Assembly: GCA_030424715.1 (NCBI GenBank)
Contig: JAUHWH010000001.1
Coordinates: forward strand, 496,001-560,000
Reading direction: 5' to 3'
Length of the DNA stretch: 64,000 nt
Source of the DNA: Bdellovibrionia bacterium
GTDB taxonomy: Bacteria; Bdellovibrionota; Bdellovibrionia; Bdellovibrionales; JAGQZY01
Part shown: positions 21,468 through 23,622 of the stretch, one piece after another
How the letters are laid out: each line of letters starts with the position of its first letter
Numbering within the stretch: the stretch's first letter is position 1
Notes under the pieces: model-generated
Seen by the model: the letters and a program-made list of their open reading frames with translations, nothing else
Database searches by the model: none
What the model was told of the DNA's origin: nothing
Program-made: the position numbers and the translations under genes

Positions 21468-22140
21468 GACCCTCATTGATTTCAATGATAATTTTACTCT
21501 CACCAAAGGAGATCACATCACCAGGTACGAGCTGCTTTTCTTTAACACTCTCTTGGTTGATCTTCACCACGGCTTCATTTTCAGTATAAAAATAGGCATA
21601 TTTCCCTTTAAGGCGGATTTCGAAGGTTTCTTCTGGAGCTTCTTTGTCGAAAAGGCAAATATCGGCCGAGTTTTTCCCGGCGATGCGAGGACCATAAAAA
21701 ATATCCCAAAATTCTCCATATTGTAACCCCTGGATCACTTTTAAACGCACCTCCGGCCGCACCTCAGAGAGTAAACACTTAGAATTCTTTATTTTTTTAT
21801 AGCGAGACCCCAGCCAAGACTGGACTTTGTTGGAGAATTCGTAATCCCCCATCCCGGGCAGCCGACAGCGAAATTGAATGTTTCCAAGGCGAATCAAATC
21901 TCCGTCTTTGAGGGCGGATTTTTGCTCTCGCTGCCCGTTGATCCACACGCCGTTGCGAGAGCCATTATCAATAATGGACCAGCCCTCACTCTCGGAATAT
22001 TTGAAAAACGCGTGAATTGCCGATAGTTTAACATCTTCAAAGACCCGCTGAGCACCTTTGCGCCCGATGCTGGTCGCTTCATTGAGAGTTAGTTTTTCAC
22101 CCTTGTAGGGCCCATCGATAATATCTAGATAAAGGCGCAT
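21451..22140 (-). CDS. FHA-domain protein (two FHA-like domains)
   Basis: 229 residues. The first FHA domain (about 1-95) is complete: SIGRKG, the LSAIHAFF segment in place of the usual SRxH, DNGSRNGVWING and DGDLIRLG. FHA domains bind phosphothreonine peptides. A second, more degenerate FHA-like fold fills about 125-225 (GPRIAGKNSADICLFD, PGDVISFGESKIII). The canonical SRxH is altered in domain 1 (SAIH), so phosphopeptide binding there may be weakened. No kinase gene is seen in the window. Overlaps the hydrolase gene that follows. Confidence 0.88.
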   Translation of the reverse strand: MRLYLDIIDGPYKGEKLTLNEATSIGRKGAQRVFEDVKLSAIHAFFKYSESEGWSIIDNGSRNGVWINGQREQKSALKDGDLIRLGNIQFRCRLPGMGDYEFSNKVQSWLGSRYKKIKNSKCLLSEVRPEVRLKVIQGLQYGEFWDIFYGPRIAGKNSADICLFDKEAPEETFEIRLKGKYAYFYTENEAVVKINQESVKEKQLVPGDVISFGESKIIIEINEGHGFNN

Positions 22141-22205
22141 AGTCCATTTTTGGGGATTCCCCTTTGTAAATCAAGAGCTTAGCCCCCTTTAGTCTGGTTT
22201 TTCTC

Positions 22206-22234
22206 TTGTGGCCACTCGACCTATATGCTACACC
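22206..22234 (+). promoter_or_regulatory. Candidate rpsF promoter
   Basis: TTGTGG, 17-base spacer, TACACC. Both boxes are imperfect, but the spacing is ideal and a start near 22241 would give a leader of about 58 bases holding the stem-loop described next. Confidence 0.4.
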
Positions 22235-22254
22235 CTGCATACATTTTAAGCCTT

Positions 22255-22299
22255 ACTCACATACAAAAAGTGTGTGGGTTTATAACCGAAAGGAAAACC
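22255..22299 (+). promoter_or_regulatory. Structured rpsF leader, candidate S6(:S18) autoregulatory RNA
   Basis: A 10-bp stem (two G-U pairs) closes an AAAAA loop: 22255-22264 with 22270-22279. An alternative stem GGUUU/AAACC (22277-22281 with 22295-22299) encloses ACCGAAAGGA, which holds the ribosome site and an ACCG sequence. The two stems share bases 22277-22279, so they cannot form together. Known rpsF leaders bind the S6:S18 complex through a conserved CCG. The match here is suggestive, not proven. Confidence 0.45.
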
Positions 22300-22725
22300 A
22301 TGTTGGAACTCAGCCAAACCACCGTCACTCGTCCCTATGAAGCGATCGTCATGATGCACTCCGATTCTTCTGAACAGGATCAAAAAGACCTCTTTAGAAA
22401 GAATAAGGCCATTATCGAAAGTTTTTCAGGTGAACTCAACCATATCGACAGCTGGGGCAAACGGAAGTTAGCCAACCCAATCGAGAAAAACACGCGCGCG
22501 GTTTATTTCCATACCACTTTTACAGCCTCTCCCGATGCCATCCACGAGCTTGAGCGAACCATGAAGATTAACGACAAAGTGTTACGTGTTGTCCACACTC
22601 GTTTGTCTGACAAAATGAGTCTGCAAAAACATGTGGAAAGCTTTAAAGAGCGCCTTGCTGACACTCTTCAAAAAGAAAAAGAAAAAGAAGCCAAGTTTAA
22701 AGCTCGTAAAGCAGCACGAAAGTAA
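22300..22725 (+). CDS. rpsF: 30S ribosomal protein S6
   Basis: 141 residues with the S6 pattern: RPYEAIVMMHSDSSEQDQKD start, WGKRKLANPIEKNTRAVYFHTTF, and an ERTMKINDKVLRVVH helix. A basic, charged C-terminal tail (KEKEKEAKFKARKAARK) extends the family core. The ATG has AAGGA upstream. S6 binds S18 on the platform of the 30S subunit. The usual next gene, rpsR, is not here: the following gene starts directly after the stop. Confidence 0.96.
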   Translation: MLELSQTTVTRPYEAIVMMHSDSSEQDQKDLFRKNKAIIESFSGELNHIDSWGKRKLANPIEKNTRAVYFHTTFTASPDAIHELERTMKINDKVLRVVHTRLSDKMSLQKHVESFKERLADTLQKEKEKEAKFKARKAARK

Positions 22726-23622
22726 TTGGGCGTTGATTTGAAGCGAAACGACTGGAGTCGACTCGCGTTCACCTCGATGATGGGACTCGCGCTTTCTTAT
22801 GCCTTTGTTTTTTTGGCAGCGCTACCCATTCGTTACATGAGGCTAACGTTTGGTCGCAAAACATTTACCACTGTCTCTGTTCTTTCAGCAGGGGTCCTAT
22901 TCGCTACTGGTCTGTGGCAATGGGCTCTTGTATATAGTTCCATCTCACTATTGATTGGGCTCTATATCGAACTCGAAGATCGCCATTTTTCAATTTTCCA
23001 ATCCTCCAGTGTTTCTGTACTAGCAACCCTTGGCCTGATTGGCGCATCCTTGGTCAGTTACTCGCAACTCTCTGCCGTGTCTTTACAAAGACTTTTGGCT
23101 GACCGGGTGACTCCCCTTATGGAGCAATTGCAACAAGTGCCGAGATTTAAAGAGGCCTCGGTGGACAGCATTCTCTGGTTTCTGCCCTCAGGTATCATTG
23201 TAACGATGATGGTCGTTCTTTTTGTGTCACTCACTCTCAATCGAACGCCCACCACAAAAAAACAGCAGTTTGAAATGCGTATGTTCCGGTTGCCTGATTG
23301 GTTTATCTGGGTCTTTCTCGCGGCGTTAGGCGGCACCTTTATAAAAACGTCGGTACCCGCCGTGTCGATGGTTGGTCTTAATCTACTGACGGTTGTTCTT
23401 GCGGCCTACTTTTTTCAAGGGTTGGCGGTCTTTACTTATTTTCTTGATCGTTTGGCAATCTTCGGCTTTTGGCGATTGCTCGCTTATTTCATCGTATTTT
23501 TTCAAATGTTCTTATTTATCAGCGGCCTTGGGATTTTGGACTATTGGTTTGATTTCCGTCCACAGGGCTTAACAAATTCAAATAATAAAAAAATAAAAAA
23601 AATTAAGAGGAGTACAAAATGA
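22726..23622 (+). CDS. DUF2232-like multi-pass membrane protein
   Basis: 298 residues with about seven or eight hydrophobic segments and a basic tail (NNKKIKKIKRSTK). DUF2232 (YybS-like) proteins often lie between rpsF/rpsR and rplI in delta-proteobacteria-like genomes, which supports the call; function is unknown. The start used is TTG immediately after the rpsF stop, with GAAAG upstream; a TTG four codons later is possible. The last four bases overlap rplI (ATGA), so it is coupled to ribosomal protein expression. Confidence 0.7.
   Translation: MGVDLKRNDWSRLAFTSMMGLALSYAFVFLAALPIRYMRLTFGRKTFTTVSVLSAGVLFATGLWQWALVYSSISLLIGLYIELEDRHFSIFQSSSVSVLATLGLIGASLVSYSQLSAVSLQRLLADRVTPLMEQLQQVPRFKEASVDSILWFLPSGIIVTMMVVLFVSLTLNRTPTTKKQQFEMRMFRLPDWFIWVFLAALGGTFIKTSVPAVSMVGLNLLTVVLAAYFFQGLAVFTYFLDRLAIFGFWRLLAYFIVFFQMFLFISGLGILDYWFDFRPQGLTNSNNKKIKKIKRSTK

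Follow-up and report, generated by a model that had tools for sequence, protein, structure and literature searches.

A predicted S6:S18-type rpsF leader upstream of an operon that lacks rpsR in the order Bdellovibrionales

The stretch of Bdellovibrionia DNA analyzed here (64,000 nucleotides, hereafter the window) contains, directly upstream of the ribosomal protein S6 gene rpsF, an RNA leader that, judging from its sequence, fold, and conservation, appears to be an S6:S18 rpsF leader, a kind already known from Escherichia coli. Very probably, it mediates autorepression of the rpsF-DUF2232-rplI operon by the S6:S18 heterodimer, with S18 provided in trans. The leader is ordinary in kind and well supported; the twist lies in the gene arrangement. 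As the original prediction had pointed out, rpsR, which encodes S18, is missing from the operon: rpsF, DUF2232, and rplI are consecutive, and the only S18 match in the genome is located on another contig.

The leader occupies positions 22251 to 22293, immediately 5′ of the rpsF ATG (22300), and overlaps the ribosome site. From 5′ to 3′, it consists of CCUU, ACUCACAUAC, AAAAA, GUGUGUGGGU, UUAUAACCGA, and AAGG (Table 1). The basal helix H1, in which CCUU pairs with the Shine-Dalgarno core AAGG, closes the hairpin H2 and leaves UUAUAACCGA as a bulge. Thus, according to both the fold and the covariation described below, a basal stem and a hairpin flank a CCG-containing bulge, and the Shine-Dalgarno sequence lies inside the basal stem. 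The original prediction, which covered positions 22255 to 22299, had proposed the 10-bp hairpin and had noted the CCG; the CCG is present, and the hairpin, which has an AAAAA loop, is real, being both stable and covarying. The 5′ strand of H1 begins 4 bases upstream of that interval, and the decisive pairing, that of the basal helix, is therefore located just outside it.

Table 1. Features of the rpsF leader and operon in the window.
Feature	Position	Strand	Basis or remark
Promoter-like pair TTG...TGCTA	22206-22230	+	Upstream of leader; predicted from sequence
H1 5′ strand CCUU	22251-22254	+	Fold; match of held-out model R1; same place as E. coli CCUU
H2 hairpin 5′ arm ACUCACAUAC	22255-22264	+	Fold; H2 pairs covary in relatives
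H2 loop AAAAA	22265-22269	+	Letters
H2 hairpin 3′ arm GUGUGUGGGU	22270-22279	+	Fold; covariation
Bulge UUAUAACCGA	22280-22289	+	10 nt; ends in ACCGA
CCG in bulge	22286-22288	+	Predicted S18 contact
H1 3′ strand AAGG (Shine-Dalgarno core)	22290-22293	+	Six bases 5′ of ATG
rpsF, ribosomal protein S6	22300-22725	+	PF01250, E 4.2e-26
DUF2232 membrane protein, next operon gene	22726-23622	+	PF09991, E 1.7e-18
rplI, ribosomal protein L9	23619-24077	+	PF01281 and PF03948

The last 4 bases of the DUF2232 gene are also the first 4 of rplI. The same neighbors recur in relatives: 87 of the order's rpsF loci have 2.2 kb or more of downstream sequence, and rplI follows rpsF in all 87 and DUF2232 in 81 of them. 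A pattern modeled on the promoter-like pair, TTG-N16-24-TGNTA, precedes 100 of 118 rpsF leaders from the order, compared with 4.9 on average and 12 at most in 200 single-base shuffles; the pattern was picked after the sequences had been read. An N-terminal extension of S6 from the ATG at 22225 was considered and rejected, since this ATG is inside the promoter-like box and since the open frame starts within the leader in many relatives.

To describe the fold, we calculated the energies of the individual helices and of regions of different length. The 10 pairs of H2 yield −12.6 kcal/mol, and H1 and H2 alone yield −14.3 kcal/mol. None of 200 dinucleotide shuffles of region 22255 to 22302 was as stable (z −3.2); the corresponding numbers were 2 of 200 for region 22225 to 22302 (z −2.5) and 7 of 200 for region 22240 to 22310 (z −2.1). 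The minimum-energy structure of the latter region contains H1 and H2 as well as a further outer stem, on which no conclusion rests. The pair probability of H1 is 0.45 to 0.48; therefore, the basal helix is poised rather than locked. In the window, H1 comprises 4 bp, and a fifth pair, which is formed in 69 of the 90 aligned rows described below, is G-A.

Of 140 genomes analyzed from the order, 132 gave an S6 match, and one rpsF locus was taken from each. The list for dereplication was drawn up without leaders longer than 70 nt, the window, its genus-mate, L145, and 13 loci lacking anchors. Two of the resulting 68 dereplicated leaders (L114 and L124) were dropped by choice, as their anchors seemed doubtful. 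The remaining 66 were aligned with MAFFT blind to structure (alignment A1), and a covariance model, R1, was built that thus contains neither the window nor its genus-mate. Since leaders were anchored on [CT]CTT at the 5′ strand and on CC...GG toward the 3′ end, conservation of H1 in A1 is partly built in, while H2 is free of this bias save for a preference at its first bases. Alignment A2 was obtained by fitting sequences to R1 and comprises 95 matches or 90 distinct rows, including the window; counts over these rows omit unmatched loci and a second batch of 33 loci.

R1 recognized the leader with a score of 46.3 bits (E 4.9e-11) when the window was searched. In the whole 3.13-Mb genome, the leader was again the best match (E 2.4e-9), followed by matches of 18.4 (E 0.30), 16.3, and 14.8 bits. 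At E ≤ 0.01, R1 matched 114 of the order's 132 rpsF loci (95 of 99 and, in the second batch, 19 of 33); these come from 52 of the 62 genera in which S6 was matched. These 114 loci include the 66 seed leaders and 48 of 66 non-seed loci, some of the latter being near-copies of seed rows.

Pairing in both alignments was compared to that in shuffled controls. In A1, 90.4% of cells were paired, and 129 cells were changed on both sides compared to 39.2 in shuffled alignments (a level reached in 0 of 500); when the partners were slid by one to three columns, pairing fell to 43 to 68%. In A2, 92.1% of cells were paired, with 145 changed on both sides versus 42.0 in shuffled alignments. Covariation across relatives, which had been suggested as a check on the original prediction, is thus strong. 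It comes almost wholly from H2. H1, which is paired in 95.3% of cells in A2, hardly varies, since the same bases serve as the ribosome site. In the window, H2 is closed by A-U; across the 90 rows, this pair is G-C in 82, A-U in 5 (including the window), and unpaired in 3. The bulge varies from 8 to 12 nt in length but always contains CC (90 of 90 rows), as CCG in 78 rows and as CCA in 12.

No match to R1 at E ≤ 0.01 was found in 18 of the 132 rpsF loci of the order, and 10 of the 62 genera were matchless. Eleven of these loci (L114, L130, L133, L136, and L138 to L144) come from genomes of 2.0 Mb or less, although other genomes that small do match; among the 11, the leader may have been lost in some and altered in others. 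Evidently, the leader is dispensable or changed in some lineages. The unmatched loci count in favor of a rival view, in which the structure is a relic, unregulated since rpsR left the operon and serving only for presentation of the ribosome site or mRNA stability. We consider this unlikely. R1 matches persist in most genera, the hairpin covaries, and the unpaired CC stays, while a merely open ribosome site would need neither the hairpin nor the CC.

We also compared the leader with the Rfam model of the known leader, RF02893 (RpsF_leader; gathering score of 37 bits). As a control, the E. coli leader was recognized with 110.1 bits. No match was found in the window at the gathering score, and a search with Rfam at E ≤ 10 over positions 22000 to 22500 returned nothing from RF02893; a PrrB_RsmZ match on the minus strand (22296-22398, E 2) was taken as chance. 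RF02893 did not match any of 20 loci from relatives either. At the level of whole genomes, it was above the cut-off in 0 of 39 genomes and in 1 of 14 control genomes. Sub-threshold matches at E ≤ 1 occurred in 10 of the 39 genomes, none of them at an rpsF place, and the window’s genome contained none at E ≤ 1. The original prediction had proposed a search with this model and had named the lack of a match, combined with absent S6 binding, among its refutations. There is no match, yet covariation is strong; the model criterion would have misfired, and the RF02893 model is too narrow for this clade. Supported by strong covariation, the known range of the S6:S18 leader now includes a clade that escapes Rfam’s model.

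In the reverse comparison, R1 aligned to the E. coli leader in the same register but weakly, with 11.8 bits (E 0.61, or 0.0023 in a 301-base search). The two leaders are similar in layout: as in the E. coli rpsF 5′ UTR, a CCUU/AAGG basal helix holds the Shine-Dalgarno sequence, and an apical hairpin is followed by a 3′ bulge with CCG shortly 5′ of AAGG, directly before the rpsF start. In contrast to E. coli, the hairpin in the window is a plain 10-bp helix without an inner bulge, the bulge is 10 rather than 12 nt long, the basal helix contains 4 rather than 7 bp, and the operon lacks both rpsR and priB. PMC4647458 describes an approximately fourfold repression of E. coli rpsF at the level of translation by the S6:S18 pair and by neither protein alone, an essential CC pair in the leader, and a putative Shine-Dalgarno sequence within its basal helix. 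The S6S18CBM motif (Matelska et al. 2013) and the Bacillus subtilis leader (Fu et al. 2014) are considered here as presented in PMC10931766 and PMC4647458. The presence of rpsR in the same operon is usual in most taxonomic groups but not defining. Overall, the architecture, the R1 match, and the covariation support the original assignment to the S6:S18-type rpsF leaders.

By analogy with the work on E. coli and B. subtilis, the leader is predicted to be bound by the S6:S18 heterodimer, with repression of rpsF translation as the outcome. Whenever synthesis of S6 and S18 outpaces their uptake into ribosomes, the free heterodimer would bind the leader, with S18 gripping the CC(G) of the bulge. 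Binding would stabilize H1 and hide the Shine-Dalgarno sequence, and translation of rpsF would stop. Translational coupling could extend the stop to DUF2232 and rplI. With rpsR located elsewhere in the genome, S18 would join the repressor in trans, and the leader would tune the production of S6 (and L9) to the amount of S18.

The location of rpsR was examined throughout the order. None of the 132 loci showed S18 after rpsF; the sequence following rpsF spans 2.2 kb or more in 87 of them. Unlike the usual context of the S6S18CBM motif, rpsR was thus not found near rpsF in this order. In the window’s genome, where the sole S18 match is on a different contig from rpsF, each of the two genes is more than 100 kb away from contig ends, and rpsR is arranged head to head with an rpmB-like gene (L28, named from its translation). 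A search with R1 of 31 rpsR loci revealed no convincing leader; the best match, in L198 (14.7 bits, E 0.061), and another in L008 (10.3 bits, E 1.2) were taken as chance. In 12 of the 31 rpsR loci, a CTTG(T/A)TGGCAA box is closely followed by a TATCGTATA-like box, for example, upstream of rpsR in L001 (minus strand), L015, L192, and L200. These boxes are probably the rpsR promoter.

The absence of S18 from all 132 loci could mean that the leader senses S6 alone, one of the two effectors that the original prediction had put forward, the other being S18 made elsewhere. We regard sensing of S6 alone as improbable. In E. coli, neither protein represses by itself, and recognition of the cytosines is expected to involve K60 and R63 of S18 (both according to PMC4647458). 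The genome still encodes S18, and, in an alignment, this protein agrees with that of E. coli at the contact and interface positions K60, R63, Y23, and K24, with R61 replaced by K. A motif built on the contact residues was present in 24 of 31 S18 proteins of the order, as counted with a single regular expression that itself requires lysine and arginine. Since both the CC of the bulge, retained in every aligned row, and the S18 residues that read it are kept, the S6:S18 heterodimer with S18 acting in trans is favored over S6 alone. Of the two original effectors, S18 made elsewhere is therefore the better option.

The retention of the leader although the genes for the two proteins that it presumably senses are apart raises the question of whether an autoregulator has turned into a cross-locus balancer. 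We lean toward the idea that the leader of this order is a trans-sensor, kept to measure S18 made elsewhere and balancing S6 and L9 against it.

The original prediction also included a second stem, GGUUU (22277-22281) paired with AAACC (22295-22299), and proposed that this stem and the 10-bp hairpin are exclusive states chosen by S6 alone or S18. As letters, the second stem exists: its strands are complementary, three of its bases (22277-22279) also belong to the hairpin, and both ACCG and the ribosome site lie within it. Its column pairs in A2 are also slightly above the shuffled level, with 44.7% of cells paired versus 41.9% (a level reached by 12 of 500 shuffles), 30 cells with changes on both sides versus 22.9 (10 of 500), and a covariation score of 0.111 versus 0.094 (26 of 500). 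However, fewer than half of its cells pair, and sliding the partners by −3 or −2 columns increases pairing to 61.6 or 53.1%, respectively. A gap is present at one or more of its five pairs in 74 of 90 rows, and a 5-pair stem is found at this place in only 16 of 90 distinct rows, while H1 and H2 score far higher on the same rows (see above). At −2.4 kcal/mol, the stem falls 10 kcal/mol short of the hairpin in stability, and its pair probability is 0.003 to 0.004. We therefore rejected the GGUUU/AAACC stem as a working switch, being weak, improbable, and poorly conserved in relatives. The conserved fold is a single bulged structure with the Shine-Dalgarno core in the 3′ strand of H1, and a choice between two exclusive stems is very improbable.

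Beyond the order, 30 other genomes of the phylum were analyzed, and 12 of their 30 rpsF loci matched R1 at E ≤ 0.01. In a sister family of the same class, S18 is located within ~0.4 kb after S6 and the leader is present in three of three genomes (R1 E ≤ 1.9e-8). In 7 of the 30 genomes, S6 and S18 are encoded in one open frame. In the other 20, S18 is near rpsF in 12 and was not found in the locus in 8, where it is on another contig. Since these eight genomes also split the two genes, separation of S6 and S18 is not confined to the window’s order. Among the separated loci outside the order (L159, L163 to L165, L167, L168, L175, and L177), R1 matches L175 and L167 and gives no match in L163, L164, and L177.

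The fused genes belong to genomes recorded as Bacteriovoracaceae, Halobacteriovoraceae, or similar. Both Pfam domains were above the cut-off in seven of seven fused proteins tested (L172 to L174, L176, and L178 to L180, with the S6 match near locus position 1500). When 115 Bacteriovoracia genomes were searched, 105 matched; a full-length fused frame was present in 97, stop-free in 96, and the fused S6-S18 polypeptide (loci L201 to L310 and the seven above) is ~200 amino acids long. By title, no paper among the matches listed in our literature searches deals with fused S6-S18, and the matching titles for Bdellovibrio and rpsF concern other subjects. Of 80 Bacteriovoracia loci, 3 with too little upstream DNA were omitted from the analysis of upstream regions. 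In the remaining 77, a CC.GGAG-like stretch before the start was found in 68, a CUCGCUC...GGGC-like hairpin in 66, and both in 59, according to patterns written after the upstream regions had been read. Judged by eye and by these patterns, most fused genes appear to be preceded by a leader that resembles the one described here in layout but differs in its basal helix. Applied to seven fusion loci, R1 scored three (17.1 to 18.3 bits, one of them at E ≤ 0.01) and gave no score for four.

Thus, S6 and S18 genes are adjacent, separated, or fused within one phylum, with leaders of apparently the same layout on all three arrangements, a set that could serve as a natural experiment to learn what the S6:S18 regulator detects. 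The heterodimer model could be tested directly in Bacteriovoracia, where fused S6-S18 follows a leader of comparable layout. In five genomes of the same family (G180, G181, G185, G278, and G296), S6 and S18 were found as two separate pieces rather than in one frame; the two may have split again after fusion, may never have been fused, or may appear separate through assembly errors.
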